A stretch of 64,000 nucleotides of DNA, taken from positions 992,001 through 1,056,000 of the forward strand of contig CM022372.1 in the NCBI GenBank assembly GCA_011800155.1, given 5' to 3'. Below the pieces are notes generated by a model. It was not told the DNA's origin, made no database searches, and saw only the letters and a program-made list of their open reading frames with translations. The translations under genes were made by a program, and so were the position numbers. The DNA is from Flammulina velutipes. Its lineage: Eukaryota > Basidiomycota > Agaricomycetes > Agaricales > Physalacriaceae. Shown piece after piece: positions 2,077 through 24,274 of this stretch (its first letter is position 1; each line of letters starts with the position of its first letter).

Positions 2077-2127
2077 GAGGTTACCGATAGAGGGAGTTTA
2101 CCAATAGAGGGAGGTTACCGATACAGT
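2077..2127. repeat. Three 17-bp tandem repeats
   Basis: Three adjacent 17-bp units read gaggttaccgatagagg, gagtttaccaatagagg and gaggttaccgatacagt. They lie in the promoter-side spacer upstream of the F-box gene that starts at 1975. They may be a replication-slippage product or a cluster of protein-binding sites; nothing else marks a function. Confidence 0.75.
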
Positions 2128-2212
2128 GTGGACACGGTTGGCTCACGTTGAAAATGTGATGTACATATTTATGGTCAAGTCGGTGCATTATGTAATACAA
2201 ATTTCAAAGGGG

Positions 2213-3627
2213 CTAATCAGATGACGGTGACTCAACTCGGAACTTCCACAAAGAGTCATCCACACACCGCCGCCACACCGCGAGAAATTGAAGACGTACC
2301 TCAATCAACTCCGTTTCGATTGGTAAATGACTCAAGTATAATTGGAAATGATCTCGGACAGCCTTTGTTTTTTTCGGTCCCGGACCAACAGGGTACATGT
2401 GCAGTACTCTCAGGTGGTGCAGAACGGTCATGTCTTGCTGAAAGAATGATACAATATCAGACTGTTCGTTGTTAGTCTTGCATTTAATATAAATTGTAAG
2501 TAACACACCTTATTTGGCTTATCAGTTGAGAAGTAGTTCAACCTTAAGTCCTCGACGCGTGGAAATCGGTTGACAGCTAATTTGAGAACTGCAGGTTTCC
2601 ACCTGATCACCGTAATTTCGAATGATTGTAGATCCGGCATATAGGGCACGTTCCGTTCAATGGAACCTATGTCCACGATAGTGTCGATGACAACGTGGCG
2701 TAAAGTTTGACAGCACTGTTCCAAAATGCCGGCGTGAAATTGTCCGCAATAGGTAGAAAGTGAACGAAATCCGAAGCGAATGCAGGTGGCGGCAAATAAT
2801 GACAAGTTGACGAAATGTAGCGTTTTCACGGTGCCCGCGAAACGGTTCGTCCAGGATGCAACTCGTATTGCGTCTATGTCCGTGACGTATTTCACGCCCT
2901 CGAGCTCCAGAGTCGTTATGGACAGAACCGCTTGCGGTATATCCAGACTGGTTAGACGTCTAATTGTAATGTCATCAACTGACAATCGGAGAATAGACAA
3001 GTTGCAGGCATCCACCAGGAAGAGAAACCCGACGTCAGTTGAAATCGTGTCTGACGATTTTGCTGGTGGGCCACGGGACTCTATCACGTCCAATTCGGCG
3101 ATCCGTAGTTTCCGAAAACGATCGGCCAATGCATTAGAGCATCCAGGGAGCTCGCAGTTCCAGAAGGCCAAGACATGAAGTGAAGGCAAAGAGCAAATAG
3201 TGTCGTATAAATCGAACGATGCGTCAAATGAACATCCGACGAATCGTAGTACGGTTAAATTGATGAACAAGCCCAGTTTTACCAGAACAACAGTCGAGGT
3301 AGATGGAGTGGACTGAGCCACAGCGATACTTTTTGGAAGCGCCGTTATTGTATGGTTGTCCGGTGATACATTCCACAATAAAGAAGATATTGTGGAACAG
3401 TGGGTTACGTTCCACGCAGTGCATCGAAGTAGTACGCGCTGTACATACAAACAGGCCCGTCGAGAAGTACGAATCAGATTGTAGATGTCTGGTACGGCCA
3501 GCATAGACGCGATAAGACACCATATTTCGAGTGGCAAGCGGATAAAGTGTGAACAAGATGTTTGTCTCCGCTGCACGCGTGAACGTTGCTCTGCCACTTG
3601 AGAGTCGTTCACATCGAAGTCGCGCAT
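2213..3627 (-). CDS. F-box/LRR protein
   Basis: ATG at 3627, stop at 2213. One clear intron (donor AATAAG|GTGTGT, acceptor CTTTCAG|CAAGAC near 2440) joins a long first exon to a short C-terminal exon. The F-box is at about residues 27-60: FIRLPLEIWCLIASML followed by VPDIYNLIRTSR. After it come leucine-rich segments (LTVLRFVGC, LHVLAFWNCEL, LSILRLS, LQSFEITV) that look like irregular LRRs. The product is about 450 residues. It is the best-preserved F-box of the array and shares its C-terminal pattern (a leucine/valine strand, then a Trp-Arg-Arg motif) with the gene ending at 6633, which supports common descent. Confidence 0.72.
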
Positions 3628-3887
3628 CCAATAAGTAGGACAAGGTCGACAACCTGTCGATGCCCGTGGCTTATATATATCTCCAGTCTCTCTGCAATTG
3701 ATATAATGGTTAGTTCAATAATGATCGTACTAAACAACTTACCGGTAGATAAGCATACCACATTTTTCATGGTGACGAAGAACGTAATGCATGAGAATGC
3801 ATGGTTCGCGTACAGCTTTATATAGTAGTGTTACACGTGATTAAATATTTATCCGAAAAGGTACGAGAAACGGTGCGAATCAACACG

Positions 3888-3931
3888 TTGATCGTGTCGC
3901 TGTCGATCCTTGATCGTGTCGCTGTCGATCC
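3888..3931. repeat. 22-bp perfect tandem duplication
   Basis: The 22-bp unit ttgatcgtgtcgctgtcgat+cc occurs twice in direct succession (3888-3909 and 3910-3931), followed by a partly palindromic aaacgatcgtcgttc. It lies between two F-box-like genes and has no coding potential. Confidence 0.85.
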
Positions 3932-3994
3932 TTAAACGATCGTCGTTCCTGATCTACGTTTTACGGAAATGTTACCAAGAAAGTAAGCTCGTTC

Positions 3995-5239
3995 TTATTT
4001 AAAATTCAGATACATTTTCTCCATTCTAGAACCTGATCTAGAAGTCACAGTCCATGCTTCTACCTCGAACCGACTTGATTCGGAACGGATCGTCCTATAA
4101 ACTGAATCCCGAATGAAAGTCAAGTAAGACCGTGAACTTTGAGAGTGGGTCAGTACACAATAATCTGTCTGAACAAACGACTCACGTTCCGTATGGTGAT
4201 TTTGATCGCAATATGAAGCATACAGATACATACTGAAGGTGTTGCCCCCCTTTCAGTAGTTCGTGAAGTGCAACCCAGTGAGTACGTTCGAAGCATGAAG
4301 CATACACACGAATGTGAAGGGTCTCTATAAACGGAGAGCTCAAAGCCCACGATATGATGTTGTTGCGCTGCTTAGAAAAATCATTTGGGAAGCAGTTGAC
4401 TTTAATCGATCTCAGCAATGCCATATCAACCAGGGATACACTGTCGAAAGGGAGAGGCTTTCTAGCTGTGACATGCGTGAGACGAAATGACCTAAAGCGT
4501 ACAACGCGAACGTACTGGATTGAATGAGAGACAGACACGTGAGCGTCTTTTTGAAATCGATTATAGTCCGAAGTCCCAATTCGGATTGGGCGGCAATGGA
4601 GAAGTGTTCGATGGGTGATCGTAAAACTACATCGTTGAGCCAAAGAAGTGATATGGCTTCGTCGACATGGTTCAACGGCAAGAACGAGCACCTAATGAGA
4701 GTGTTTGAAACGTTTCCCTGGTAGATGCGAGAGGGAACGAATTCGGTTGCAAAAATGACGAGGTTGTGCATATGAACGGCGTAACGCGTTACGACATTTA
4801 TGCTCTCGCCCGACGTAGTGCAATTCATCAAACGCACGTCGCCTACGTTTCGGACCAGTCCGTCGAGCACGCCGACTCGTAGGGTCGTGGTGTTTATCGA
4901 GTCGAGTCGCAGCATTAGATGTGAAGGATGATGCAGTTGACCCAACATGTCAAAAAGTATGACGACGGTGTCGAACTCGGCCTCATTGTCCACGTTCGTT
5001 ATGTCGACTTCGTAGATGTACGACACAAGTTTTGCGTGAGTAGGTATGCCGAAGAACGAAGAAGGGGGTTTTGTAGACGACAGGCTCAAACGATTCCACA
5101 TACGGTGGCGACAAATCGGCAGGAACACGGAATTAACCGTGGACAAAAGGATAGCGTCAGCCAGAGTCCAGATAAACTGTGTAGCTACCTCTTCAAGAAC
5201 GAAAAAGGGTAGATAAGGGTCTAGAGCGTTTGAATGCAT
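3995..5239 (-). CDS. F-box/LRR-like protein, C-terminus uncertain
   Basis: ATG at 5239. The first exon reads through a degenerate F-box-like start (residues about 8-55, LPFFVLEEVATQFIWTLADA) into leucine-rich sequence. A 50-nt intron (donor TCCA|GTACGT, acceptor GTCACAG|CTAG, near 4450) keeps the frame and leads into SLVDMALLRSIKV. After about residue 330 the ending is ambiguous: the exon can stop at 4182, or a third exon can run to 3995. The overall plan matches the genes at 729-1975, 2213-3627 and 6633-8060 on the same strand, so it is probably a fast-evolving paralog. Base composition resembles the rest of the array. Confidence 0.55.
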
Positions 5240-6632
5240 AATGATGCAAGTAAAGGTTGAGAGGTGTGGGATGACTCAAATTGCGCTACCATGCTATGGC
5301 TGCCTACGTATTTATATGATTTTTGGAAATGCCGCGCCATTCGACACAAGTAACTATATACGACAATTATTTTCGTATGACGGCAACTGACCTCTCGTCA
5401 AAAATAAAATTGCGCCACATCGACTAACGTTTCGGTATAGTACTGATATGGTCGTGTTTAGTATCGTCACGGGAGCATGCCGAATATTCAAATATTCAAT
5501 GTTACAGTGCTTCGGGTCATGACATGGGACCTAAACCACAAGTAAGACCTCACTGAAACGCGACGAACCAAAAAGATGGATAACATTACGATCAATCCGT
5601 CGTTACACCACGTGTCACGAAAATAAAGTGATCGAACCACGAAAAGTCATATGATTTGTATTACGCCACACTAATAACATCGGTCGTCGTCCGTGTTTCC
5701 GGATAGACGATGTAAAGTTCTACATGTGATCATACATGTCTCGGATCACATTATACTATTGTGTCAAGTTACGAATCTCAAGACCAGCGCCACATTAACG
5801 AAAGTTTTGGATCCATTGTCGACATGTCTGAAAACGACACATTTTCCATTTCAAACTTTTATAAATCGGGGGATAGATGTAATATACTATAGCAGCTCTT
5901 TTACACCGCCTGACCATATTATCAACCAGTGACGATATAATTGCGATGTGAGTCAATGCGCGTACGGGGAACGAGGGCCGACGTGTGGACGGGTGACGAT
6001 ACAATTGCGACGTGAGTCAATACGCGTATGATCGTTATCAGTACGAGTCAATGCATGTATGATCACAAGGAGTTATGACGCATGTATCGAACAGTCTACA
6101 AAGGGGGTTTTTAACACGTCGATACCAATCAAATGACTACTAATTCAATTGTAAGTCGACATGTGCATGCGCCACATGAACAGATTATTGTAACGATCAT
6201 CGACACATGCAAAACATTGTCATTAATTTACACATTAGCTCTATAAATAGTTGATAAACTGACGGATAGACCCAATAGAGTAGAACAGCTGTTTCTACAA
6301 TAACGACCATGTTACATTCAGTGACGACACGATCACGACATGTGCCGATTCTAATTCAATCCATTCATAGGTATGACGCACACACGAAATTGTATACGAA
6401 ATGTATTATGCGCGTTGTTTGCGGAAGGTTTAATTGACAGGCACATCTCGGATTAACTCGATACAGTTAGACGCGAAACCGATTTTCAAAGACCATTTTC
6501 GTACAGTAATATACACGCGTGATTGGGATAATACGGACAATAATAGGATTCTGTAATGTACAAGCAGTCATAAGGTCAAGAGGACACAAAACGTACCAGT
6601 TCATATTGCTAAAAGTACATACGTAGTTTCAT
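5240..6632. other. AT-rich spacer with a dispersed direct repeat
   Basis: No convincing gene. A 34-bp segment (gacgatataattgcgatgtg..., 5931-5965) recurs with three changes at 5995-6028, and a shorter piece (gagtcaatgc) recurs again near 6046. Short open frames here have no recognisable product. It separates two F-box-like genes. Confidence 0.6.
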
Positions 6633-8060
6633 TCACCAAGATGGCTTCTCGACATGCATGACCCATTCATCGTCAGATGGATCGCGCTTCCAAACAGCGT
6701 TTAGCTGCAAACACACCTCCAGCAGTGACCCAATTTTCTTCATTCTGGTAAACCCGTCCGTCAGGTACAACGTTAACGCCCGGTCCTTGTTGGTGGTGTA
6801 TAGATGTAACACCCGCAGGTTGGGAAGTCTAGGCAAGAAACGGAACGGAAATGCGCTCAGAAATTCCTACTGCAACGTCAATATCATGCAATAGGTTAAG
6901 GATGAACGAACCTGTGTAGGAGGATCACCTCCAACGTACGATATCCTGAGTTCCTCCACTCCGGGAAATGTCTGAACAGCGCAGTGCATCATTTCGACGT
7001 CCCAGCACGACAGAACGAATCGCGCGTTTTGAAGCAAAGGTAGAAACAACGGCATATGACGTGCCAGATGATCCGGGAAAATGATGCCAGAGAAAACAAT
7101 ACCAGTAAGATGCGCGGCGACATTGAGGGACTTCAACGACTGAATGTCGCCGTGATATGTTCTGAGGTTGGGAAGAGGAGGATGGAAAGGGACGGCGGGT
7201 AGGACTGTCCACGGTAACACCCGGAAATGTTCCAGGGAGTTGAAATTGCTGAGAAAGCGTGCTGTAGACTGCCTGAACTCGTCAAGGATTGCGATGAAAG
7301 GTAGACGTAGCACGGACGCTATCTCGAGCATCCGTACGTTGTTGAGTGAATGCGGGACGGCCTTTAAAATGTTGTTTAGTACATGGCGAGAAGTATAGAC
7401 GTTCCAATCCAGACGAAGAACATTGAGACGGGGTGCCGTGATGAGATTCAAGGCACCAAGTCGGTTGTGGGACGGTAAAGAGGACGTTGGCCACGTCAGA
7501 TCGAGGAGGTCAAGCTCCTGTATAGGAAGGGTGGAGAAGCGTGCAATGTCGGAATTGGAACACGTCGGCATGGCGCAATCGTAAAACGATAGATATGTCA
7601 AGTGTTCGAAAGATTGAATGGCGTCGAATACGATGGAGTTCTCAACAAAAGAAAAATGAGCAAATTGGAAAGTGCGAAGATTGACGAACTCTCGAAATCG
7701 AGGTGCAACAAGTAGAAGCGTGTCGACTATTTTGTGTCTCGACTGGATGGACAGTACGCGTACCGCGTGACTTTTTGTGGTATCGTTATATCTGTCCGAA
7801 CTAGCGTCAAGAACAGATCGACGATTCACGTTCCATCTCTGTGCGCGAAGTAGAGGAAGGATGGTGACGGAGTAGAAGAGCTTGCTCGTGCATGACAACT
7901 GATGAAGATCAAAAGCGTCCAAATAAGAGCAAACCTCGGACCACATCTCCGTGGGGAACGATGGCGTTCGACAAGGTGCGTTTCGCAATAGAACACGACG
8001 AACGTCGTGGACGAGGTGTTTGCTGAGAAGTAAAGCAGAAATAGGAATGTTCATGTGCAT
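6633..8060 (-). CDS. F-box/LRR protein
   Basis: ATG at 8060, stop at 6633, with one intron near 6850-6910 (donor CCTACACAG|GTTCGT). An F-box-like segment at residues about 30-75 (SFPTEMWSEVCSYLDAFDLH) is followed by leucine-rich strands: LTYLSFYDC, IQELDLLDL, LNVLRLDW, LRTYHGD, VEELRISYV. The product is about 450 residues. The C-terminal exon ends with a Val-Trp-Lys-Arg segment and a Trp-Val-Met-His-Val strand, matching the paralog ending at 2213. It is probably a substrate receptor for SCF ubiquitin ligase by family analogy; the substrate cannot be guessed. Confidence 0.7.
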
Positions 8061-8291
8061 GTCGTCCCACTCATTACGGATACTACATGTATCGGTCAGC
8101 GCGGTTTAAACGAATGTTCATCTTAACTCACGGCAAGAACGAAGGCATACGCAGTTGCATACTTGTGTGATAGGTAACGGGCGACAATTCAGAGGAGACA
8201 ACAGATCGCTTAAATAGTATAGGCATCTCAATAGTCACGCCACCTAATAACGAGATACAATTACATTGCACGAATTTCAAGAGAACATTTG

Positions 8292-9053
8292 TCAGAAGAA
8301 TAGATCAAAATATAGGAAGTTTCCTGCGTCATCCACCGGTCGATCTAATACAGTTTGTCCTTCTCTGTCCCGAAAAATGAGACCGTCAGATATGGTTCGT
8401 AAGACGGGGCAAAATGTGGGACGAGTTTCGATTGCTCGACGGCAAGTCGGGCACTCATACATGCGTACCTGTTCGTCCGTATATTCAAGCTCGTCAACAT
8501 ATTCCATGTCGTTGGCAGAGCTCAAAAGAACATCAGAACGAGGGAGCAAGGCCATAAGAGGTTGGGGGTTGAAATCATCATCCGCTCGTCGCTCGTCTGC
8601 AAACTTGAAGAGATTTAGGAGGCAATACTCGCAGAAGACATGACCGCATGGCGATAGGCTTCATTGATGTCAGAACGATACCGTCAATACATAGTTTGAC
8701 TTACACGCATGGTCTGTCAACCGTATCGGTGCATATGGCACACAACGTCTCTTGGTACAGGAATTCCATGTCCTTGGAGGCGAATACGTTAGTAGTATCA
8801 CGAAATAGAGCAAAACACGCTTACCTCCTCAACGTGTCCCTCGATGTTAACGATCAATCTTCCCAACTGCTTGTTCTCCACTCGCAAACTGATCAATCGA
8901 TTCTTAATGCGGTGTATAGTCTGACGAAGTGTAGTTATCGACAACGAGACAAATGTAAATGCATACCTTAACTAGAATAGCGTTCTCTTGAACGAGCAAA
9001 CTGTCATTTCTTGCGGAGGTTCTGGTGCGACCGCCAGGAGGGTCTGCAGGCAT
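8292..9053 (-). CDS. RING-finger (C3HC4) protein, putative E3 ubiquitin ligase
   Basis: Four exons give about 204 residues. Exon 1 (8967-9053) starts MPADPPGGRTRTS; exon 2 encodes a 32-residue heptad-like segment (RLISLRVENKQLGRLIV) likely to form a coiled coil; exons 3-4 encode the RING. The zinc ligands are in order: CAIC, then SPCGHVFCEYC, then CPTC, which fits C3HC4. The exon 3/4 junction falls inside the ring (GCGT|GTAAGT...GAAG|CC) and splicing restores PCV-LSPCGH. The C-terminal 55 residues are unassigned. A RING beside a set of F-box genes suggests ubiquitin-related roles, but the proximity may be chance. Confidence 0.78.
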
Positions 9054-10234: not shown

Positions 10235-10243
10235 TCTATTACT
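10235..10243 (+). other. Candidate Helitron 5' terminus (A|TCTATTACT)
   Basis: Helitrons begin with TC and insert between A and T. At 10234/10235 an A is followed by TCTATTACT, similar to 5' ends of some Helitrons, and the matching 3' candidate at 24143 is followed by T. Short motifs like this occur by chance, so it is only a hypothesis to test against other copies. Confidence 0.2.
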
Positions 10244-10460
10244 GTGATTGTCAATGTTTTGTAACACATTCCGAACGTGATTTTTTTTTTATGTTACGCA
10301 CGTCTTAAATATGAGGTCCGCTATTGAAGACATGCGACACATAACGTTCTACAATTCTGAACATATATAGTTCACTTTGCTGACGTTTACATATCGTAGA
10401 ATACACCACAAAACAAGGCAAGTACTCGACACCGACAAGCTTCCACATACGTATATATAT

Positions 10461-10550
10461 CCTGGACGTTACCGTAAGACTGCTGCGGGCGTCCAGGTAA
10501 CGACGCGCATTATCGTGCAACAACGGTAAGACTGCTGCCGATGCACGATA
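10461..10550. repeat. Paired stem-loops, copy 1 (shared loop GTAAGACTGCTGC)
   Basis: Hairpin 1 (10461-10497) has stem cctggacg/cgtccagg; hairpin 2 (10511-10550) has stem tatcgtgca/tgcacgata. Both carry the same loop core gtaagactgctgc, closed by an inner three-base stem that is CCG/CGG in the first and CGG/CCG in the second. Different stems with preserved pairing around one constant loop indicate selection on structure, in RNA or in single-stranded DNA. It lies 306-395 bp upstream of the dioxygenase start codon. Confidence 0.8.
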
Positions 10551-10690
10551 GTACAAGTCCGCTTCATCGCGATACGTCGACACGCACAGTTCGTGAGACC
10601 ATGACTGAAGTGTCGTAGATTTACACCGCGACGGCACGCTGAGAAGGTACGCCTTTCAATTTTATTTTCCCGTATGTATATCCCATCTGT

Positions 10691-10780
10691 CCTGGACGCC
10701 ATCGTAAGACTGCTGCGAACGTCCGGTCATAGACGTGCACCCTCACGCAGTAACGGTAAGATTGCTGCCGATGCGTGAGG
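10691..10780. repeat. Paired stem-loops, copy 2 (shared loop GTAAGAYTGCTGC)
   Basis: Hairpin 3 (10692-10726) has stem ctggacg/cgtccgg with one G-T pair and inner stem TCG/CGA; hairpin 4 (10741-10780) has stem cctcacgca/tgcgtgagg and inner stem CGG/CCG. Order, spacing and loop match copy 1 about 230 bp upstream, so the pair is a tandem unit. Compensating changes between copies keep every stem. It ends 76 bp before the ATG of the dioxygenase gene, so it may lie in its promoter or 5' leader, or may be a transposon structural element. Confidence 0.8.
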
Positions 10781-10855
10781 TTACACGTCTTCACGTCGTC
10801 TTTTCTTGCGTTGTACCTTTTACCTTGCAGTACAATGTTGACCTCCTTCAATTAG

Positions 10856-12279
10856 ATGAAACAGTTGAAGGATATCGTTACGAATAACGCCAAACGAAAG
10901 CCAGAATTTCAAGACGGTATTGACAAGCCCAAACGTACACGTATAAGATCTGGGTCGGACGCCAACTGCGACGAAGAGACGTACGACAATTGTTCCAACC
11001 AAGACGAAGGGGAATCGGGAAGTGCAATGAACGAAACTGTTTTGACAATGTGCGACGTATACAAATACTGCGAGCAAGACACACAAGACGACAAGCAACG
11101 GTGCGATTACGATAGCTCCAATCATTACTGTTCCTAATATAGTAAACATAGGTCAGCCGAATGCAACTCTAAGCGACGATACACAGAGCATGACAAGGAG
11201 GTTAACTTTGGCAGAGAAGCCGCACGAGCCATTCAGACTGCGAAACTGCAGGGCAATACAAGTATCAGGTCAAGCGTCGCGAACATGTAGCACGAAGCTG
11301 ACTGACAAACCAGAAAAATGTACGGAATTTAACTTCCACAACGCAACTCAAGGTAACCAAAAGGATCGTACAAGGGAACTCAACGTCAAATACGCCCCGA
11401 AAGTTACGAGCCATTGGGACGACTTAACGCCACGACGTATGGTGTCAGCAGACAACGTAGACATCTTATTCTATTTGCCGAGATTCGTGAAAGAGACAGG
11501 CGCGGTACGATTCGATGCCGACTGTTTGAAACAGAAAAAACTGATTGTTCAAATAGACTCTCCTTACAGAACACTTGATAGACTTTGGTAAATCACAAAA
11601 ACTGTCAGTAGGAACAGGCGCAGATGGCAAGCAGCGTAATAAGGCAGCCGCCTTCCGAAAGACGAACGGTGCTGTCGTAGGTTGCTGCATTCTTGCCCGC
11701 GTTTGGCACGGAATCGGACATTCAGTACGCTCACACCTCCACTGAGCAAGAGTTGACACTAACGAACACAAGCATGAAGCTGGGACCATTTCCACTGCGT
11801 TTCTCCAGAGCGCGAGTGCGTACGGGAAATCAATGACACTTCTAAACGATCTTCGCTTTCTGTCAGTAAGAATCAACGCCGCACTTCAAAAAATAGACGT
11901 GAAACAGTCGAACGCGCTTTCCACCCTGGTTCGTCTAGCTGGAGAAAAATATCCCCACGTAAAGGCGTTGGCGGCTATCGACCCCCTACTTATGGAAGGA
12001 CGAGCCATACAATTCAACAGGCAAACACCACTTCACGCTGATAGACAGGATCCTCCTAACGGATGGGCGTTTATAGTCGTGCTTGGAAAGGTCACCAAAG
12101 GCACTATGTTCTTCCCTCGACTAAATCATCGCATTCGTTACATATCAGGAGACGCTGTCGCTGTACGTGGTAGACTGATACAGCACGAAGTTGAAGCCTG
12201 GGAGGGGGACCAAAGAATTTCAATCGCGCACTTTACGCATGACGCGTTGTGGAGGGAATTTGACATGGAGTGTCCTTGA
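10856..12279 (+). CDS. TET/JBP-like 2-oxoglutarate/Fe(II) dioxygenase
   Basis: ATG at 10856, stop at 12279. The last exon, from about 11773 after an intron with branch CTAAC and acceptor ACACAAG, encodes the catalytic double-stranded beta-helix. The iron ligands are visible as H-A-D at 12034-12042 and a distal His in LIQHEVEAWEGDQRISIAHF (His codon 12184), with the 2-oxoglutarate-binding Arg codon at 12214. The flanking text (NGWAFIVVLG, then GD.V.VRGR) is what I know from fungal TET/JBP proteins, which oxidise 5-methylcytosine or thymine in DNA. Five or so upstream exons encode a charged, basic N-terminal region; their exact joins are uncertain, total about 400 residues. It converges on the gene ending at 12460 and lies 2.3 kb from a Helitron replicase gene. 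A general 2OG oxygenase is the alternative. Confidence 0.72.
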
Positions 12280-12459
12280 AGTACCGATTTCTTTTATTTC
12301 GTAAATTACCATCAAATACGTACCGATTTCGTCGCTAAAAACGCGTAGAGTGCACGTTTAAGGAAAACGGTATGAAGAACATCGTCGTGGTAACGACAAT
12401 CTCATAAACAGGTGTAGGTACACAGTGAGGAAGTATAGTACATGAACATAAGGAATTCT

Positions 12460-14138
12460 TTACATAGCAAGACCGTCAAAATCAGGAGATAAAAGATGCG
12501 CCTGAGCAAGCAGCTCTTCGTCATTGAGCTCATTGGGCTCCATCGGTTTCATGTTGGCTGTGCTCGTGACTCCTAGAGGAATTTCGCACTTCATGTCAGA
12601 AGTCAGAGGCGAGCCGATCCCGAATCGGTCGTTATCGACAGGGCGTTCCAACAGAATGGCGAGCTGTATGTTTAGCGAAACACGCTGAGATTTGGGATGG
12701 AGAGGCCCAACGTTACCGTCTATCCATCCGCCCAAAGTAAACGCGACGAGGGCAAAGTCTCCAACGTCCATGTCTTGATCAAGACGAGTCAACGTGTTGT
12801 AGTTCGTGAGTTGAAAGATAGATCTTCCGTCGAAGAGAGGAACTGTACAACGTAAGCGACCACACGTATAATTTAACGATAGTATAGTCACCATCCTCAT
12901 CCCAAGGACGCGGCGCTGAACATACATTTAATAAATTTGGTACTAAAACATATTTGAAACTCACAAGGTCCATGTATCATGTTATTCGTGACGTTTCCTC
13001 TGGCAGGAGGGGTCTTCCAATTTTCGCCCGGCTTTCTCATTGTTGAAAAATTGATTCCGTCATGAGTTATGACAAAAACAGGACGCTTGAAGTCAAGAAG
13101 ACTGCCAATAGAAGAAACCATCCTCGGAAGGAAACGATGTATCGGTTGGATAGATAAGTCTCTGAAGTATTGGGTGCGCCCGGCGTTGTGCATGAGTTCT
13201 GAATGAACAACGCGTCCTACAACGAAGAAAGTAGAATCAATCTTGTACCTGTCAGACATTGAAGTCTCCACGTTAGCAATTACACGTCTAGACAACGAGT
13301 TGTTCTTTAGGACGATTCTTGAGTAGTCAGACGAATTGACGGAAAAGATGCTGGCCATGTTGTGACCTACGCCGGACGCAGAGTACCGCAGCAATCGTCT
13401 ACATTAAGTTCATGAATAGATATTAGAAACCAAAAAATTAAAACGTCACTTACAGCGCTTTTGATTGGTTAGTACCGAAATAATCCTCTATTTTGCAAAA
13501 CGGAAGATTGTCGACGTTACGTACTCCATCGTATCGAAAACCCTTTTCACTTACACGCTCTACTAGCGCAATTTTTGGGAGCGCGAAAGACAGTCTAACG
13601 GGATGACGATGAGAGAAAAGCAACGAGAAGACAATACACATACCTTGTACCTTTAACGTCACGGCCTACGCCCCCGTAATCTGCCGGTCTGTAGACGATT
13701 AACAGAAGGTACACCGACAAATCTGTTCGTTTACCTGTCGGTTGACTGTTCAAACACGTCTCCTTGTGTTCCATCAGTCGTCAAACGATCCTTGGTTTGG
13801 AATACACATTAGTATACCGTAAACGTTAGATGAACGGCATGAACTTACCGCAACTAGAGGGTTATCATATGTATTGGGTTTGGCGCCAGCCTCAACACGA
13901 GTAGACGGTGGACCATCGTCACTTGCTGTATCGTCAGCAGAATCCGTACATCTTTCAGCATCCGTGTTCCGCGATACAGCGGGTCTATGCGAAACACCAC
14001 TAGAGAGAAAATATTAACGAGCAATAATGAACGTACACGAGGAACGGACTCAGTCTTCGAGCGTTTACTCGATCTGGTTGTCTTTGAGTCAGCGGGAGAA
14101 ATTGGCCGTTTGTCGCCTGTCTCTGTAACCTTTGTCAT
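12460..14138 (-). CDS. Unknown multi-exon protein between the dioxygenase and Helitron genes
   Basis: ATG at 14138, stop at 12460, seven or more exons with introns near 50 nt. The first about 90 residues are disordered and basic/acidic (KRPISPADSKTTRSSKRSK), as in nuclear proteins. The middle exon (12955-13395) gives a folded-looking region (DRYKIDSTFFVVGRVVHSEL, then FKRPVFVITHDGI). The C-terminal exon follows a 49-nt intron (donor GAGGATG|GTGACT, acceptor TTGTACAG) and contains VGDFALVAFTLGGW and QRVSLNIQLAILLERP. I do not recognise the family. The strand-rich C-terminal part could be an OB-like fold of the sort used by single-strand-binding proteins carried on some Helitrons, but that is a guess. 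It ends tail-to-tail with the dioxygenase and shares a 400-bp divergent spacer with the Helitron gene. Confidence 0.6.
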
Positions 14139-14537
14139 GGCGAGGTCAGATAGTATAAGGGAACGGTGTACTCGTCGATAGCCAACGCCTGTTTTAAGCA
14201 AAAATTAGACGTCACAAGGACTGTGCTCATGACAGTAAAAATAGATGATTATCACGTCAAGACGCGTCAAATCAAATTTTATGATACCGAACTTTCGGAC
14301 CACCGGACCTTACGGTCATATGATTTACCGGACCTTGTTCTAATCCGCCACACTATTTGTGGCGCAAATCTGCTTATGTATGTGAAAAAGGTATACGCAA
14401 CGCATTTAACGGTAATTCCGTTGTTTCAAATATCAAAATATCATCACTCATGATCACATTCTCAAGCGACCGACGTCGTTAGTAACGTGTCTTTCTGTAT
14501 TTATAGAACGTATTCTGAGTTGCTTTTAGAACGAGCT
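14139..14537. promoter_or_regulatory. Divergent promoter region between the unknown gene and the Helitron gene
   Basis: The two genes start 399 bp apart in opposite directions. The interval is AT-rich and contains a plus-strand open frame (14166-14453) that I take to be chance. No individual motif can be named with confidence. Confidence 0.45.
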
Positions 14538-17500
14538 ATGTCTTCCTCCTCGTCATCGAATAAGCGACCACACGAACGCCACGGATGTGATACCGATCAT
14601 GAAGACACTTTACCACAGAAAAAGAGGCGACTGCCACACCCTATTAAGTAACCACAAACAGTTGTCCACCCATACCTTACAGGGGGCCGCATTACATTGT
14701 CTGTCTGTAATTGAGCCGTGCTCAAAGGTGAAGCCACAACTAGTTGTCAATTCCCTTATGTGGTAGGGCCCGCCAGAGGGAGCAGCTCTGGGGCGGGCGG
14801 GCTGGTCCATATATGGATAGACATTGATGGGAGCAGCTAGGGATTGATGGGGAGGGGGAGGGGGAGCAGGAGATGGGGAAATGTGGCCACACAGAAATCC
14901 GGACCTAGGGATTGATGGGTACTGATGTCATTGATTGACCAGGGGAATGGGGGATGGGGATAGGAATTGTGGCACCAGGAAAATCCGGACCTAGGGTTTG
15001 ATGGGGACAGGGGATGGGGGATGGGGACAGGGGAAATGTGGCCACAGGAAAATCCGGACCTAGGGATTGATGGGAACTGATGGGATTGATGGGGGAGGGG
15101 ATGGGGGATGGGGGCAGGGGGATTGGGGGCAGGGGACAATTGTGGCACCAGGATAAATACTGGGCTATTGCCAGGGTATGAGGAGGGTATGGGAGGGATG
15201 ATTGTAGGTTGAAAAATAAAATTCTTTCTAACTATCAGAAACATGAATGGGGATGTGGCAGCTACTGAAACCAATAATAAAACGATGTGTGGCGCATTTT
15301 TAATCGAGGAGCACATACCTCGGATCAACCTGGGGTTGTTCTAGATGTCTTCCTATTAAAAAATGGATGTGTGCAGCACAAAGAACCATTTAAAAACACG
15401 AAGATTTGGCTGAGAAACAAGCCAAACATTATTGAAAATTCATCAAAAAGCACCAAAAAGGGAGCAGCACTTTGCTCTCGCTTGGGGGTGACCTGGAACC
15501 ACTTGTAGGTCGTCCAGACACCTTTGGGGCATTGTATATGTCACTCAGTTAGGTCCCCAGGTCAACAGAACCCTTGGATATGATCAAAATGCCAAAAACC
15601 CGGACCACACAGCTTTGGGCCACACTATCAACTTGCCCTGACCTGGGGACACCTTATATTCGAAGATATATGTATATAATGCTCTAATCATGAGTTAGAT
15701 GAGGTCTGGAGTGTGAAAAATGCAGTCAAAACCTTGGATATACCCCAAATAATGTCCCCCAAGAAAGCACATATACCATCAACTTCCCCTGCCCTGTGGG
15801 TCGTCCCAATGTGTTCTATTATCATTATAGATGATGTATTAGCATCCCAGAGGTATCCCCAGTGTGTCAAAATGCGAACATTCATGATACAATAATTTAT
15901 ATCCCCTCCTTCTACACCAAGAACCACCCCAACTATCACACATCTGAGTGGTGGACTATTGATTTTAACATTATACAATGTGTTTTTAGCTTCCCAAAAT
16001 ATGTCCCAGGTTGAACACCCTTCAATATAGAGCATGGACATTTGAGAATTAGTACAAAGATCATATCCTCACCATGTACCAAAGGGGTGTATCTTCGAGG
16101 TCTACTTATGACCTGGGCCCCAAGATATCATCTAAATAATCTCAAATGACTATTAGAACAGTCCTAAAGATGTAGATATGCGAACCAATGAGTGTACTTG
16201 AGGAGGAAGGGTGAATAAGGGTTCACCTAGTATCCTGAATGTTCGCATTTTGACATACTGGGAACACTTCTGGGATGCTCAGACATCATCTATAATGATA
16301 ATAGAACACATTGGGACGATCCAGAGGTCAGGGGAAGTTGATGGTATATGTGCTTTGGTGAGGGACATTATTTGGGGTATCTCCAAGGTTTTGACCGCAT
16401 TTTTCACACTCCAGACTTCATCTAACTCATGATTAGAGCATTATATACATATATCTTCGAATATAAGGTGTCCCCAGGTCATGGCAAGTTGATAGTGTGG
16501 CCCAAAGCTATGTGGTCCGGGTTTTTGGCATTTTGATCATATCCAAGGGTTCTGTTGACCTGGGGACCTAACTGAGTGACATATACAATGCCCCAAAGGT
16601 GTCTGGACGACCTACAAGTGGTTCCAGGTCACCCCCAAGCGAGAGCAAAGTGCTGCTCCCTTTTTGGTGCTTTTTGATGAATTTTCAATAATGTTTGGCT
16701 TGTTTCTCAGCCAAATCTTCGTGTTTTTAAATGGTTCTTTGTGCTGCACACATCCATTTTTTAATAGGAAGACATCTAGAACAACCCCAGGTTGATCCGA
16801 GGTATGTGCTCCTCGATTAAAAATGCGCCACACATCGTTTTATTATTGGTTTCAGTAGCTGCCACATCCCCATTCATGTTTCTGATAGTTAGAAAGAATT
16901 TTATTTTTCAACCTACAATCATCCCTCCCATACCCTCCTCATACCCTGGCAATAGCCCAGTATTTATCCTGGTGCCACAATTGTCCCCTGCCCCCAATCC
17001 CCTGCCCCATCCCCCATCCCCTCCCCCATCAATCCCATCAGTTCCCATCAATCCCTAGGTCCGGATTTTCCTGTGGCCACATTTCCCCTGTCCCCATCCC
17101 CCATCCCCTGTCCCCATCAAACCCTAGGTCCGGATTTTCCTGGTGCCACAATTCCTATCCCCATCCCCCATTCCCCTGGTCAATCAATGACATCAGTACC
17201 CATCAATCCCTAGGTCCGGATTTCTGTGTGGCCACATTTCCCCATCTCCTGCTCCCCCTCCCCCTCCCCATCAATCCCTAGCTGCTCCCATCAATGTCTA
17301 TCCATATATGGACCAGCCCGCCCACCCCAGAGCTGCTCCCTCTGGCGGGCCCTACCACATAAGGAAATTGACAACTAGTTGTGGCTTCACCTTTGAGCAC
17401 GGCTCAATTACAGACAGACAATGTAATGCGGCCCCCTGTAAGGTATGGGTGGACAACTGTTTGTGGTTACTTAATAGGGTGACTGCCAACTAGAAGAGGC

Positions 17501-20500
17501 AAGTTTAATGTAACACGTATAACGAACTGGTCTCTAAATATGTTTTAAGACGCGAGCGAAATCGTTACTCTTTACGCTGTCAACTTGTCCGACGTACAAA
17601 AAACGAAGATTGTACACTTTATGGCGGATACTACTATACGAAACACCGATTTTAGACGTCTCAACGACATCGCGATCGAACACCGTTTTCGACAGCGGTT
17701 TTTCGACCACGACGATGCTGTTCTAAAACTGAAGTCGCACCGATGCACTTGGGAATGCCTAGTACGGTCGTCAGACACATACGACGACGTCAGGGGAGAT
17801 GAAATCGCAATGGACGTTGAAAGACGTACGAAGTAATACACCCAATTTTGCATCTACTAACTATACAACAGAATACTTGAAAAACCTGACCCCTCAACAA
17901 AAGACAGACTGTTTGAGACACTTTCTTCTCAACAAGCTACACAAAGTTTCCGATGTTCGTCTTACATCGCTTGCTATCGAACACGACGTTGTGCTATCAA
18001 TGGACGTCGATAATCCACTTGAATTAGCAGTGTCAAACTTATCGAGCCATTTGTGCTCGTCGTCGTGCCGTATACGCGAAGAGGACGCGCACTTTGCTAG
18101 ATTACCCCGTGAAGCTATGGACAGACAACGACTCAGACAGAATCAATTATCGGCTCAGAATACTTGCGACAATAACGATGTCAAAAACTGGAAGGAAAAT
18201 TGGCCCCAAATGGAGGAACAGACATCGTTAAACGAGGTATTATCGTTTGAAACGCATAATATTACAGAATACAATAATTGACGATAAAAACAGATTCTCG
18301 GGGAATTCTTAGACGCAACGTCAGGTGACGCTATTCGCACGGAACAGTGCTCGTTCTGCAACGCGACGCAAGAATCAGGAAGTGTCAAGAGAAGGGAACC
18401 CCACGAACTGGACATCACGATCCTGATCAATGCTACGGAACGTCTCCGTGCGATAAAAGAACAACCCCTTATAAAGTCGCACCAATTAATCGGAAACATG
18501 TACAACATATGCTCTTCATGCTGGAGCTGTACGAAGAGGGGCAAGTTTGTACGCGTACCGACCTTGAGCTGGGCAAATGGTTGTTGGATTGGAGAGGTGC
18601 CAGAAGAACTCGCTCGATTGACGTACGCCGAGGAACTCGTGATATCGAGAGCACACACTACGAAGTGCTGGATGAAGCTAAACGGTCAGGGTAGGTCGAG
18701 AGGCGCGTCTACTCAGAGAGCCGCATCAGGAAACGTTTGCATTCACCCGCACGAAATAACACACGTCGCCACCCGGCTCCCTCGTCCAATGAACAGCTTA
18801 TACGACGAAATAGTTGTCATATTCGTCTCGAACGACCAAGACGCGACTGCCAAATTGTTGAACAAGACTCCGCTGCTTGTTAGGAGAGGATTCATACTCA
18901 AAGCGCTGCAATGGTTGAAGAAACATAATCCGTTATACAAAGACATAGAGATCGACTGGAAGGCGTTGGCTGAATATCCGGACGACAACGACGGACATGT
19001 ACCCTTCCCAATAAACTTTCAAATCCCAAACTCTACCATTCACGGGCAGTCAGCAACGTACACGGGACACGGCGTTGATACGACAGAGGCTATGTTCGCG
19101 GACGCATCTTCAAGTAACGATGAATCAATACCTATGTCCGCAACAGGTTTGAGTCCATTTTATGTTACGTTGTTTAAATCTAAAAACATGGTCAAGGTAC
19201 ATTCGACGTTGACAGGACTGAACTATCCATCAATATACGGAAACTTGAAGCCTTGAAGCACTTAAAAAACAACGGACAGTTTTTAAAGACGTCAACTTCA
19301 ATGGACACCATAAATCCAAGGGACGACCCCACGGTATACGGTCTCTTGTGGCCTACGTTGTTTCCGTACGGCACGGGTATGTTCGAAGACCCCGTCAGAG
19401 AAACTTCGAGTTTCCAACACGTTGCTGTACACCAGCACGTCAAACACTGTTTGTCGCTCGCTGACCGTCGTTTCCAGACGCATCTATCATTCATATTTGT
19501 GATGCACAACATATTGATGATGAGGCGTTCTTCTTACAAGTCAAGACTGGCCGTACGCAGGTCCTGGTGGCCAGCCGCTATGGTTGCGATGCAAAACATC
19601 GATTCAGAAGTTCTAGAACACGTCCAGAAAACCTTTATTGACAAAAAAAGTAGGAAAGACTTCACAAGGTTTCAACCAGCAAACGACAGAGAGCAGGCAG
19701 TCATTAATGTTCTTCGTTTCGTTGAATATATGGACGACCATATAGAAGGTTCAACCGGTGAAGTGACGAGGATGCGCGAAGAGATTAGAGCGTTAACCAG
19801 ACTAAGTGGGACACCGTCTATATTCTTTACACTGAACCCCGCAGACGCACACAACCCGATTACTTCATTGCTAGCAGGCCATGATATCGACATAGACGCA
19901 CCGTTCAACCGTCCAGACGCTCGGTATACACCTTTCGACAGAGCGCGCATTTTATCGAACAACCCAGTTGCTGGAGCACGATTTTTCCACACTATTGCAA
20001 AGCACTTCATCGAGAAACTGTTAGGATTCAAAAGAACGAATCGAAGAGGGGTATTCGGTCGAGTAAAACATTATTATGGAGTAGTGGAAGCTCAAAATAG
20101 GGGGTCCCTCCACTTACACATACTCATATGGCTAGAAGGTGTGTCAAATGTCACTTTCTATCAATTACTATAATTATTGACAATCAAATCAGGCGCCTTA
20201 TCGCCTAAACGTTTGCAAGAGCGATGCGCACGAGACAACGAATTCAAAACTAGACTGTTCAAATGGCTGGAAAGTGTATTCAAACACTCACTACCCGCTC
20301 ACACACAACCGATCGACGGGACTTATATCGACAAGAAAAGATGCCTTTTAGGACGCCCACCTCATCCAAACTCTATGACGTTCAACGACGTCTCCCAGCA
20401 ATTCTTACGTGAGGTGCTCGATGCTTCTGACCAACAACACAGACACAGCGATACATGCTTCAAGAAAACATTGAAAACTATAGGTTCCTTGACAGAAGTG

Positions 20501-23500
20501 GAGCAAGACAATTTATGCAGGTTCAATCTACCCGCACCGTTGGTTCCAAACACCCACTTAGACGAGGACGGCAGGTTACACATCAAGCGTATGGATGGAC
20601 GTACTGTTGCGTACAACGACACGGTGTCTCTAGGCTGCCAATGCAATACAGACGCCAAGTTCATTGGTTCTGGACCACTGGGAATGGCCATGGCTATATA
20701 CATGACGAATTACACCGCCAAATCATCTCTGGACTCAGCTGTAGTAGTAAGCGCACTGACTGCGGCAGTTTCGGGTCTATCATCATTTCATGTCGGACGT
20801 AACACAACAGTTGACGAAGAAACTTGTAGACGCCTACTGCTAAAAACGTTAAACCAGATGAACGGACGACGAGAACTCTCCGCTCAACAGGTAGCGTCGA
20901 CGCTGTGTGGACATCCCAACCACTTCACGGACTCCCGTTTCGCAATTTTCTACTGGACAAACGTACTACAATGGCTCTCACCGTCTCACTTTCTAAAGTA
21001 TCGTGCACCTAACACAGAAAATTTGAGGTACGTTTTACGCTACCTACGAACTATACAGTAACCTTCACTCCATAGAACATCTGGAGAAGAGACGCAACGC
21101 CCTAGAGACGATCAAGATGCCGAAGATGCCGACGATCTAGTAATACTAAAAGAAGATAGTGTACTGCCACCCGCGGCTTCGCTCGCATACGACGTACTTT
21201 TCCGACCAGCTGCGCTCGCTGCATACTCCTTGTGGGACCTATGTGCCCATTACGAGAAATGTCCTAGACGTAAATATGCGACCCACACGAATTCTGATGT
21301 TAATCACGACGAACAGCAAAATGAAGGTAAGCACTATACATTTTTACGATCATTGATTGATACCTGTAACCTATAGACACTGCTCAACTCATATTCCTAC
21401 CAGGACACCCGCAGCATGATACACATGTTTTCAAGAGAAGGCAAAAACCTGTAGTACCCGTGTTGACGGGACAGGCAATCCCTCGACGTGACATAGAAAG
21501 TCAGGCCGAACAATACGCAATCGCAATTATGGCGCTATTCAAGCCATGGGATAGAAACGCTTGCGCTCCGTTGAAGCGGACTGACATAACTTGGCGAGAC
21601 GCTCTACACGCATTTATCGAAAGTGCACCGGCCGATTGTCTGGAGATAATGGACCATCTTCAAGAACAATGGGAGTGCAGACAGGCTGCTGACGATTACT
21701 CACACAAACTGAAGAAAACAGAGTATTTAATGTCGCCCAAAAACACCGAGATTGAACAAGGGTTGGATGAAGTGGACACGGCAGACGACCTACGATGGCA
21801 GTTAGGACAAGAGGACGTGGGAGGAACATACTCGACATGCCAAAACGATGAACATGACGATGATTTGGAGCTTTTTAGCGAATATAACGGTGGAAAATCT
21901 GGAGCGTCAACGGACACAGTGATAGCTATGGCAAAAGCTGCACGTCTATACGCTTCTTGCATCGTACCAACACATGACTTGTCCATGGTCAACTCGACAA
22001 TTAACAACATCGGTCCAGAAGATCGTACCCGTGGTGACATAGCAGCAGCCTACTTGGCGGCAGAAAAATCAGTGTTCAACACAAGGCGAACAAGTAAGTC
22101 TGTGCGTTCAAATGTAACATAATTTTATAGCTTACAATTATAAGATACTCAAAATGAGCCGCTGGTTGACAGAATGATCGAACAAATGGTCTATCCGCCC
22201 GGTTACCGAGACATAACCGCACAATTGACTACACTCCAACAAGAAAAGGACAAACTCAAATACAGGATGAGATCACGTTACGGTAACGACGCGCGCTGGG
22301 ACCAACTGAAAGAATGGCAACGAACGGCAATCGGATTATGCACCGTATACACTCTAAACAAACGTCAACGGATTGCATTTCTACTCATAGCTAACAGTCG
22401 GATGCAAGAGCTACACGATCCGTCGAGACAACCTTTCAGATTTATCATAGGAGGACCTGGAGGAACGGGAAAGTCCCACGTATACGATGCGGTCAAGCTA
22501 TTTCAAGAACTCATAGGGCGCCCACATGACATATCGTTTACTGCTCCAACAGGAGTTGCAGCAGCCAACATACATGGATCAACCGTGTACTCCGAGTTGT
22601 CTCTGTCCACCAGGTACGACTCTCTCATCAAGACGAACTCAAAATCGTTGGAAAACCTATCAAAACGATTGGCACCCTTGAAGGCAATCGTCATCGACGA
22701 GTACTTCTTTATGGGGTGTAGGGAGTTCGAAAAGATGTCCAGGTACATCAACCTCGGAAGACGATGTAACGACGATCCTTTCGGTAACTTGGACGTTGTC
22801 ATTTCAGGAGACGAGTATCAACTTTCTGGTCCAAAAATAACTCCTCTATTCAGCCGAACGTTTGATTCTCTACTGTCCGCGACATCAACTCTACAACCAC
22901 TCAGCCACGATACACGTAACAACCTCATAGGATTCAAGAATTATCGATCATTCAATAAGTGCGTCGTGCTGGACGAGATTGTTCGCCAAAAAGCCCCTCG
23001 CTTCACAGCGTTACTTAATCGTCTGCGAAGAGGTCTATGCACCACGGAAGGGATCGATAGCGACTTGTCCTACCTAAAATCGTTCCAGTTACCTTTAGGA
23101 GGTCAAGGACATCAAGAAGACGATTTCGTTAAATGGATTGCGAACGCTGAAACAGCATCGCCACTTATAACGTATACAAACTCGGTACGAAATGCCCATA
23201 ACTGGAACATGACGAAGACGTTCGCCAAAGCTACTGGTCAAGAATTCGTGTTATATTACGCGGAGGACTCTACCGGCAAAGGAGGGAACAGAACGGTACT
23301 AAGTGGACAAAACGCTAAGGACGCTTGGAACGCTACCATAAAATCGGAGGCTCAAGACCTAAGCGGACGTCTACCACTTGCTATAGGAATGCCTGTGATA
23401 ATAGTCGACAACATCGCAGTCGAGTTGAACGTGTGCAATGGTAGTAGAGGTGTTCTGCGCGGAATCAACTACTTCACAAGGAAAGGAAGACGGTACGCAG

Positions 23501-23958
23501 TTTCAGTTGACGTTGACATCCAAGCGTACAACAACCCCGACCCGCTCGCAATATTTCCTCACCGGGTGACTCTGCCAGCAGTGACGAAGACCATTCAATA
23601 CACGAACCACACTACAGGGAAGACTCACTCAGCGAGACGCCAACAAGTTCCCGTTATAGCAGGTTTTGCGTTCACAGTACACAATTCACAGAGTCAATCA
23701 CTGGTCGCCGCCACTATACATCTAGAAAGTAGCAGGAGTACGGCGTCAGCATACGTGATGTTGTCGAGGATCAAATGCGGAAAAGAAGGACCAACCGGCT
23801 TGCGAATACTGGGAGAAGTAACGGCGAAACAAATTACGACCCACGCATCTGAAGAGGTCAGACGTGAGGAAAAGAGACTGATAGCGATGTCGGATCGTAC
23901 CTTGTCGGAGGCTCCAGATGATTTAGATTGGTACATAGAATCAGGTGAAGAGTTATAG
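14538..23958 (+). CDS. Helitron replicase-helicase (DUF6570-like region, HUH Rep, PIF1-family helicase), split by an insertion
   Basis: The gene starts at ATG 14538 (MSSSSSSNKRPHERHG) and ends at 23958. The first exon is interrupted at 14637-17488 by another element. After that, at least eight short introns can be placed without breaking the frame. Domain order: a basic start; a cysteine pair region (EQCSFC and YNICSSCWSC) leading into a DUF6570-like part at about 18.5-18.8 kb; a Helitron_like_N part with TLFPYGTGMFED; the HUH motif HLHILIW (His codons 20111 and 20117); the two-tyrosine motif IYMTNYTAK (Tyr codons 20699 and 20711); then a PIF1-like helicase with Walker A GGPGGTGKS (about 22451-22477), Walker B VIDEYFF, and the late motif AFTVHNSQSQSL. 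It acts in the nucleus to nick, unwind and copy the element by rolling-circle replication. No stop or frameshift is needed outside the insertion, so inactivation looks recent. Confidence 0.82.
14630..14636. repeat. Left target-site duplication of the palindromic element (ACTGCCA)
   Basis: ACTGCCA directly precedes the left terminus CACCCTATTAAG. The identical 7-mer follows the right terminus at 17482-17488, as expected for a target duplication. One base further out, G is also shared because the element itself ends in G, so a true length of 8 cannot be excluded. Confidence 0.85.
14637..15893 (+). repeat. Left arm of the long inverted repeat
   Basis: It pairs with 16228-17481 read in reverse, with position sums of 32118-32121, so only a few bases of indels separate the arms. 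It includes a G-rich tract at about 14830-15190 built of ggggatggggg-type runs and three blocks containing atccggacctagg. Confidence 0.88.
16228..17481 (-). repeat. Right arm of the long inverted repeat
   Basis: Reverse complement of the left arm. The C-rich tract at about 16930-17290 mirrors the left G-rich tract, with a two-base length difference in one run. The terminal 17 bp GGTTACTTAATAGGGTG mirror the left terminus exactly. Confidence 0.88.
17482..17488. repeat. Right target-site duplication of the palindromic element (ACTGCCA)
   Basis: Second copy of the 7-mer found at 14630-14636. Removing the element and one copy joins the codons for KKRRLP to TRRGKFN in one frame, which supports this as the true insertion boundary. 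Confidence 0.85.
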
Positions 23959-24075
23959 ATACGTTTTATGCATTGAATCAGTTCATTGTATAAGTTGGTC
24001 TGAATGTCAATTCAGAACATACTTCGATAACAGGCGTAATACACTTGAAGGTCAAAGTTATAGATGGACAGAGCG

Positions 24076-24143
24076 TGTCGCGTTGCTGTGGTAGCGTGGG
24101 AAATAGTGACAGTAACATCACGCGACAAAACCACATGATCTGA
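24076..24143 (+). other. Candidate Helitron 3' terminus: hairpin followed by CTGA|T
   Basis: An 8-bp GC-rich stem tgtcgcgt/acgcgaca (24076-24083 and 24120-24127) has a second inner stem ttgctgt/acagtaa with one G-T pair. Twelve bases after the hairpin comes CTGA (24140-24143) followed by T. Helitrons typically end in a hairpin about 10-12 nt before CTRR and insert before T. It lies 118-185 bp after the helicase stop codon. Confidence 0.5.
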
Positions 24144-24274
24144 TTACAAACGTGACGTCAAATCGGCCGACATTTGGGGGTTCAAAGAAACAAAACGTAA
24201 ACGGTTTGTTAATTACCCCGGATTACCCTTACACAATTACTACTTAGTGCTACGACGCCACATCAAACGAGGAC

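Follow-up and report, generated by a model that had tools for sequence, protein, structure and literature searches.

Within a window of 64,000 nucleotides from the basidiomycete Flammulina velutipes (contig C5, positions 992001 to 1056000; genome of 38.1 Mb in 23 contigs), a gene for a TET/JBP-related dioxygenase lies inside a region with the features of a giant Helitron. The part of this predicted element that falls inside the window covers positions 1 to 24212 on the forward strand, and its right-hand portion holds the dioxygenase gene (10856-12279, forward strand), an orphan gene of several exons (12460-14138, reverse strand) and the replicase-helicase gene RepHel (14538-23958, forward strand). 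Positions are those of the window unless a contig is named; C5, C1, C6, C7, C2 and C8 are contigs of the same genome. An earlier reading of this DNA from its letters alone, here called the sequence-only reading, had described the three genes as a block of about 13 kb from 10235 to 24143. The gene spacings of 181 and 399 bp that it gave agree with the sequence, and the borders and size have been revised: homology to a second copy on C1 continues through the left edge of the window, the actual right end is at 24212, and the C5 element spans 26.9 kb.

RepHel is recognizable as a Helitron replicase, as had been proposed, by its Pfam matches to DUF6570 (2.3e-38), Helitron_like_N (1.6e-33) and the PIF1 helicase (9e-16). 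Rep and helicase motifs are present in all three copies of the element found in this genome (on C5, C1 and C6); those of the window copy include HLHILIW and YMTNYTAK, which we take to be the HUH and two-tyrosine motifs of RepHel. Two of the five RepHel places listed in the genome have the dioxygenase; this and the other genome-wide lists of places (for the enzyme, the orphan gene and individual frames) are lower bounds that apply to this genome. More distant Helitron replicases occur at C7:893108 (43%) and C8:2009034 (38%), with no close dioxygenase relative listed near either.

The dioxygenase gene is intact and encodes 406 amino acids in five exons (10856-11100, 11152-11261, 11314-11504, 11557-11724 and 11773-12279), separated by four GT..AG introns of 48-52 bp. 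The predicted protein has H326 and D328 in an H-A-D motif, H376 and R386, corresponding to the HxD...H...R triad and the arginine that binds 2-oxoglutarate. The alignment, profile and tree of this family each comprise 12 sequences. Searches brought up nine relatives: Hymenopellis radicata contributes the two closest (P0001 and P0002; 55 and 54% identity), Jaapia argillacea another two, Mycena, Suillus and Lentinula one apiece, and two more come from other sources. His326, His376 and Arg386 are present in all 12 sequences and Asp328 in 11, with Asn in P0004. Profile searches, which the sequence-only reading had named as a check on both proteins, identify the replicase as noted above; for the dioxygenase, the Tet_JBP matches (E 1.7e-4 with the last-exon frame and 4.6e-4 with the gene model) fall below the curated cut-off. 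Matches to Tet_JBP at E <= 0.1 are found in 10 of the 12 family members, and the two Jaapia members are annotated with PF12851.

The mobility of the element was assessed by comparing its three copies. Genome searches at the DNA level with the replicase part and with the dioxygenase and orphan-gene part led to the same second locus, on C1, where the dioxygenase, the orphan gene and RepHel stand in the same order. Because all three recur together and collinearly on C1, their grouping is not a product of chance, and the proposed carriage by a Helitron is supported. In pairwise DNA comparison, window positions 1-24212 are collinear with C1:4214713-4235373, and collinearity extends further left, to a 5′ end at C5:989332, 2,669 bp beyond the start of the window. 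Long matching stretches show 65-74% DNA identity, with a few short stretches higher, and protein identity is 53-85% per frame. The C5 copy spans 26,881 bp, the C1 copy 22,709 bp and the C6 copy 12,425 bp.

The ends of the copies coincide with the limits of their homology. The 3′ end, GGTTTGTTAA, is common to C5 (window position 24212), C1 (4235373) and C6 (1733463), with sequences diverging beyond it. It is preceded by a hairpin, and the hairpin and end together (24187-24212, forward strand; GAAACAAAACGTAAACGGTTTGTTAA) are identical in C1 and recognizable in C6 as a 28-base match of 92.9%. C5:989332 and C1:4212665 have a common 5′ end, ATGAGGGG, set in unrelated flanks; the C6 copy begins at C6:1721039 with ATGAGTAGGGG, a diverged form of this end that leads into the TAACAAACCG motif also present in C5 and C1, and it too has unrelated flanks. 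Further copies with identical termini, which the sequence-only reading had suggested looking for, were therefore found: C5 and C1 have the same 3′ end, and a 5′ terminus is common to independent insertions. In none of the three copies does the 5′ end fall between 12279 and 14538, the interval that would have separated the dioxygenase from the Helitron; C6 starts far to the left of it.

An 11-bp inverted repeat links the two ends: TAACAAACCGT begins at a distance of 30 bases from the 5′ end, and the right arm of the 3′ hairpin consists of its complement. Only 15 of 20,000 random pairs of internal stretches match as well. No target-site duplication was seen at the C5 and C1 insertions, and no C5-C1 match was found outside the element in the 17.3 and 12.7 kb to the left or the 9.8 and 14.6 kb to the right. 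The 3′ hairpin, the lack of a target-site duplication and several insertions sharing their ends are hallmarks of Helitrons. The 5′ TC and 3′ CTRR ends of canonical (Helitron1) elements are replaced here by ATGAGGGG ... GGTTTGTTAA, and the asymmetric terminal inverted repeat is a Helitron2 hallmark. As judged from these alignments, a RepHel element with shared or related termini and no target-site duplication is present at three unrelated places, with the dioxygenase at the same internal position in two copies and absent from the third. We therefore consider it very probable that a giant Helitron of non-canonical type carries the dioxygenase as cargo.

The closest structural relative of the enzyme is CcTET of Coprinopsis cinerea (7vpn, 7w5p, 8jkk), the best match in the PDB both by profile and by the fold of a relative. 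The 12-sequence profile matches CcTET at E 4e-15, which accords with the TET/JBP-like context that the sequence-only reading had seen around the H-A-D motif, the distal His and the Arg; NgTET follows at 0.006. A fold search with the model of P0001, a relative 55% identical to the window protein, ranks 12 CcTET chains first (template modelling (TM) scores of 0.44-0.49 by query, E 1e-10 to 3e-9, identity 17-19% in the alignments), then four NgTET hits, then CMD1 and TET2. The resemblance to CcTET has its limits in that Gly331 of CcTET is replaced by Asp in all 12 sequences, and Asp337 by Ala in 10 and Val in two. In the available portion of Kojima 2025 (PMC12730594), Asp337 is reported as essential for CcTET activity on 5-methylcytosine (5mC) and not on N6-methyladenine (6mA). 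Because Gly331 and Asp337 are not kept and the latter is reported essential on 5mC, the enzyme is assigned, by its residues, to a distinct CcTET-like HxD subtype without Asp337. It has HAD in place of the HxE that marks the PE type and lacks the Asp337 equivalent of the AG type, the group of CcTET.

Four close relatives of the enzyme are among the 11 places listed in the genome (E up to 10): those in the C5 and C1 elements, and those at C7:1351097 (73% amino acid identity) and C2:129509 (70%). In C1, too, the gene is intact, and its five exons are arranged alike. At the C7 and C2 loci, the matches listed include no place of RepHel or of the orphan gene, and tblastn found no element genes at the C7 locus. 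The C7 gene is intact, has the same intron positions and is sister to the element copies: in the tree, C5 and C1 group with support of 100/100, C7 joins next (94/93) and the Hymenopellis sequences after it (98/98 for the five). Just upstream of the window gene, at 10460-10774, an 85-bp unit occurs twice in direct orientation (78% identity between the diverged copies) and the word GTAAGACTGCTGC recurs; a copy of the unit is also present at C1:4224840-4224932, and this repeat is possibly a regulatory or binding array. Frames of another Tet_JBP-like subgroup, recognized by eye from H-x-D-x-x-D/N, occur at C1:2940553, C8:958790 and C6:2819659 and to the left of the C6 element.

Between its ends, the C6 copy holds F-box, RING, orphan and RepHel genes. 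Nothing convincing for the dioxygenase or for a Clr2-like gene described below was found there, either among the reading frames or in tblastn, where the queries were the Clr2-like protein and three enzymes at full length and the best match within the ends is 24 residues at E 0.91; nor do the left-block frames of C5 match in C6. Outside the element, 3.3 kb to the left of the C6 5′ end (L031:9221-9754), there is a weak tblastn hit (E 0.013) whose frame resembles the other Tet_JBP subgroup by eye; its 78-residue piece gave no Pfam match. The C6 copy and the C5 and C1 copies thus form a natural pair without and with the dioxygenase, a difference that arose through a gain of genes by the larger form or through their loss from C6.

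The C5 copy is composite. Beyond the left edge of the window, its first 2.5 kb (C5:989332-991823) are 99.0% identical to the C1 5′ end, and 0.56 kb of this segment repeats the sequence that follows it at 73.7%, so that the 5′ end seen belongs to a C1-type copy; no 5′ end proper to the C5 copy itself was found. This structure would be explained if a 5′ end of the C1 type had recently moved, or been copied, into the C5 copy or to a place beside it. Fusarium Helitrons with several 5′ ends have been described and attributed to self-insertion (available part of PMC5148889). The 99% segment is also a sign of recent activity of the family. Nested in RepHel of the window copy is a foldback transposon of 2.8 kb (14637-17481), which is not part of the ancestral element; its arms of about 1.25 kb are 98% identical, its ends are CACCC/GGGTG, and it is flanked by a 7-bp duplication, ACTGCCA, at 14630-14636 and 17482-17488. 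Relatives of it (94-96%) are present at C6:1699598-1700582 and C6:1704697-1705604. The C1 element contains an inverted duplicate (79%; C1:4216520-4216752 and C1:4224059-4224291) that has no such pair in the window copy.

The remaining cargo is extensive. Its 5′-most gene encodes a Clr2-like protein and is open in C1 (4212866-4214473, 495 amino acids); the C5 gene is 99% identical, the sole length difference lying within an intron. The spliced model matches Clr2_transil at 33.4 bits (cut-off 27), with no match in the PDB. Clr2 is a component of SHREC, required for heterochromatin in fission yeast (available part of PMC3903592). Five further predicted genes, all on the reverse strand and several with approximate limits, follow in the window. 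The first, at 27-2032, has several exons, no Pfam match and an F-box/LRR-like appearance by eye alone; its frames 27-557 and 1208-2032 are 73 and 72% identical to C1 at the amino acid level and have no hit in C6. F-box/LRR-like gene 1 (approximately 2216-3714) has F-box (E 0.063) and F-box-like (E 0.025) matches that are both below cut-off, with 57% identity to C1, where one frame has one stop, and 33% to a C6 gene. Another cargo gene of no assigned function (approximately 3998-5275) is 77% identical to C1, where the matching frame has two stops, and its frame 4415-5275 is listed at two places in the genome, both in elements. F-box protein 2 (approximately 6636-8105) exceeds the F-box cut-off of 20.5 bits in C5 (26.4 bits) as does its C1 copy (28.7 bits), the two being 57% identical. 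A RING-finger-like gene (approximately 8295-8971), a putative E3 ligase, has RING matches of at best E 4.1e-6 and 2.2e-5, all below cut-off, and is also present in C1 (53%) and C6 (40%). Frames 1208-2032, 4415-5275 and 6870-8105 gave no PDB match. The orphan gene, whose start was chosen by eye, is represented by frame 12900-13403 at three listed places (C5, C1 with one stop, and C6); it has one protein match outside this genome and, as a hand-joined version of 320 amino acids, no Pfam or PDB match.

Comparison of C5 with C1 by codon position suggests that the genes have been maintained. Over its full length the dioxygenase is 67.7% identical at the amino acid level, with identities of 0.74, 0.82 and 0.40 at the three codon positions and a nonsynonymous divergence (dN) of 0.26; the program returned no value for synonymous divergence (dS), as would be expected at saturation. 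The catalytic exon (85% amino acid identity; 0.88/0.92/0.47), the Rep domain (83%; 0.84/0.94/0.41) and the helicase (0.78/0.88/0.46) behave similarly, and these codon patterns show the signature of purifying selection. Identity at third positions is 0.48-0.63 in the left block (27-5275), leaving out frame 732-1451 (0.66, 0.85, 0.71), which is probably not a coding frame, and 0.36-0.47 from F-box protein 2 rightwards. This lower divergence of the left block points to a mosaic history.

The element also differs from its surroundings in CpG content. Observed/expected CpG ratios are 1.36 and 1.25 for the two parts of the C5 element, 1.40 for C1 and 1.10 for C6, compared with 0.26 for the nested foldback, 0.97 and 1.00 for two other Helitron loci and 0.87-1.06 for 12 other stretches, of which two overlap and several were chosen for Tet_JBP or Helitron fragments. 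In 1-kb bins the medians are 1.31 for C5 (1.10-1.66, n = 21), 1.38 for C1 (1.21-1.75, n = 22), 1.10 for C6 (0.99-1.24, n = 12) and 1.02 for the host part of the window (0.76-1.27, n = 39). Rank tests, in which neighbouring bins are not independent, separate C5 (p ~1e-9), C1 (~1e-10) and C6 (0.003) from host bins, and C5 (4e-5) and C1 (3e-6) from C6 bins. The RepHel interval follows the same order (C5 1.25, C1 1.33, C6 1.09). The rise is abrupt at the left element boundary and weaker at the right. Codon use as the sole cause of the excess was set aside, given that hand-picked, mostly non-coding element DNA (4,558 nt, including some exon) has a ratio of 1.54; the dioxygenase introns by themselves give 1.17 on 206 characters. 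The host genome has five stretches with C5-DNA-methylase domains over cut-off, and the CpG enrichment of C5 and C1 fits long protection from methylation, which lends indirect support to the escape from methylation that the sequence-only reading had proposed.

These findings suggest how the cargo might serve the element. The dioxygenase would oxidize a modified DNA base on the element, leading to loss of host methylation marks, and the Clr2-like, F-box and RING proteins would act on silencing from the side of chromatin and protein, for example as a decoy for a host SHREC-like complex or through turnover of silencing factors. RepHel would thereby be kept expressed. In the rolling-circle mechanism of Helitrons, the replicase introduces a nick at the 5′ end, displaces one strand and halts at the 3′ hairpin, and RepHel may be expected to do the same here. 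The VANC proteins of VANDAL transposons are different proteins from a different transposon class. They likewise are encoded by transposons, in Arabidopsis, and counter epigenetic silencing (available parts of PMC5735166 and PMC10398659).

Several observations weigh against this interpretation. The RepHel gene of the window copy is interrupted by the foldback, and since C6 exists without a dioxygenase the family is not strictly dependent on the enzyme. With Asp337 and Gly331 replaced, 5mC oxidation by the enzyme is putative, and the fold match comes from the model of the relative P0001, with a mean predicted local distance difference test (pLDDT) score of 56.5, of which the ranking alone was used. 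For the Clr2 domain PF10383 (cut-off 25 bits), the spliced model stays below threshold at 23.9 bits, and one unspliced frame reaches 28.0; a genome search with the Clr2 family listed C6:500555 and C1:743260 and not the element copies, which counts mildly against the assignment. Four of eight C1 frames from 27 to 8660 have stops (1 to 3 each), compared with none of six from the dioxygenase rightwards; some of these stops may be introns or overlapping non-coding frames. CpG ratios well above 1 are higher than expected from escape by itself, and a different mutational history or a foreign origin may lie behind them. The enzyme-free C6 copy is also slightly above host CpG in what is a comparison of two copies with one, and the bin ranges overlap, individual C5 bins starting at 1.10 and host bins reaching 1.27.

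Of the other explanations, the one that survives best, though we think it unlikely, is that the element picked up the dioxygenase by chance from a host family and gains nothing from it. An origin by capture of a host gene is plausible because the C7 gene is intact, has the same introns and is sister to the element copies; the close relatives at C7:1351097 and C2:129509 with no RepHel or orphan-gene place listed beside them, and the lack of the gene from C6, fit such a passenger. However, a useless gene should decay, and the catalytic exon is as conserved as Rep (85 versus 83%) while third positions are near saturation. Somewhat less probable still is that the cargo is a beneficial cluster serving the fungus: its regulatory-type genes and their sequence conservation would suit such a role, but the orphan gene and frame 4415-5275 are listed nowhere outside elements, and only two dioxygenase-bearing copies are seen in one genome. 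Ancient segmental duplication, in which C5 and C1 would be paralogous blocks that incidentally hold a Helitron and a dioxygenase, could account for the long collinearity at ~70% and the 2.5 kb at 99%, yet it is strongly disfavoured and was set aside as very improbable on boundary and CpG evidence, given that homology ends at the same element positions on both sides and beside the hairpin end, that C6 has related ends in unrelated flanks, that C5 and C1 do not match outside the element, and that the shift in CpG is clear at the left border and less sharp at the right one.

A dioxygenase carried with other cargo by a Helitron as a means of counter-silencing is the best explanation of the whole, and we regard it as probable. 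Taken by itself, an anti-silencing role of the cargo falls slightly short of an even chance. More doubtful is a combined kit in which the dioxygenase acts against methylation, the Clr2-like protein opposes or redirects a SHREC-type complex and the F-box and RING proteins turn over silencing factors. If true, no earlier transposon known to us would have countered both DNA methylation and heterochromatin together, and here its genes would be held together by selection over long divergence, with CpG-rich element DNA as the trace in a genome that also contains a strongly CpG-depleted transposon.

The sequence-only reading had presented the Helitron as a new partner for such an enzyme; in fact, TET/JBP genes have been reported for Helitrons from a rust, from Pezizales and from Agaricus bisporus (Kojima 2025, PMC12730594, from the portion available, as for the other papers cited here). 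Those elements resemble ours in being fungal Helitrons that encode TET/JBP with the same proposed escape from methylation. Their enzymes are of the PU type (rusts) and PE type (HxE; Pezizales and Agaricus bisporus), and AG-type CcTET-like enzymes are reported only from Kyakuja and Zisupton, whereas the enzyme here is an HxD protein nearest to CcTET and without Asp337. A word search of the main text of that paper found no F-box, Clr2, RING finger, ubiquitin, heterochromatin or CpG. By their ends, the elements are like FoHeli, the non-canonical Helitron2 elements of Fusarium, in their asymmetric inverted repeat, end hairpins, lack of TC/CTRR and several 5′ ends; FoHeli differ in size (~5-11 kb versus 12.4-26.9 kb with many cargo genes) and in the reversed asymmetry (PMC5148889). 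HELPO1 of Pleurotus ostreatus is also a basidiomycete Helitron with one to four captured genes and a 13.7-kb copy, but it has CTRR ends and its captured genes are downstream of RepHel, with no dioxygenase or Clr2 cargo in the parts of that paper covered (PMC4289320). Fungal Helitrons of 14 kb and maize Helitrons of 39 kb, with captured gene fragments, have been reviewed, and capture of full-length genes is called exceptionally rare (PMC6431247). In the open-licence literature no paper joining Clr2 with a Helitron was found; among the papers listed, no fungal Helitron with such F-box cargo was noticed, and Kojima 2025 is the one on Helitron and dioxygenase together. The principle of a TET/JBP-bearing Helitron is thus known; the enzyme subtype in a Helitron, the size, the combined cargo, the retention of many genes over a long time and the presence of a Clr2-like partner look new within the reach of these searches.

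We know of no demonstration that TET/JBP enzymes benefit transposons. With two dioxygenase-bearing copies, a shorter copy without the enzyme and a CpG-depleted transposon in one genome, this question becomes testable by methylation sequencing alone. From the Clr2-like and ubiquitin-ligase-type cargo it seems that transposons of the rolling-circle kind are able to build up a counter-defence of several genes, and the copies suggest that whole intact genes, beyond fragments, can be kept by a fungal Helitron.

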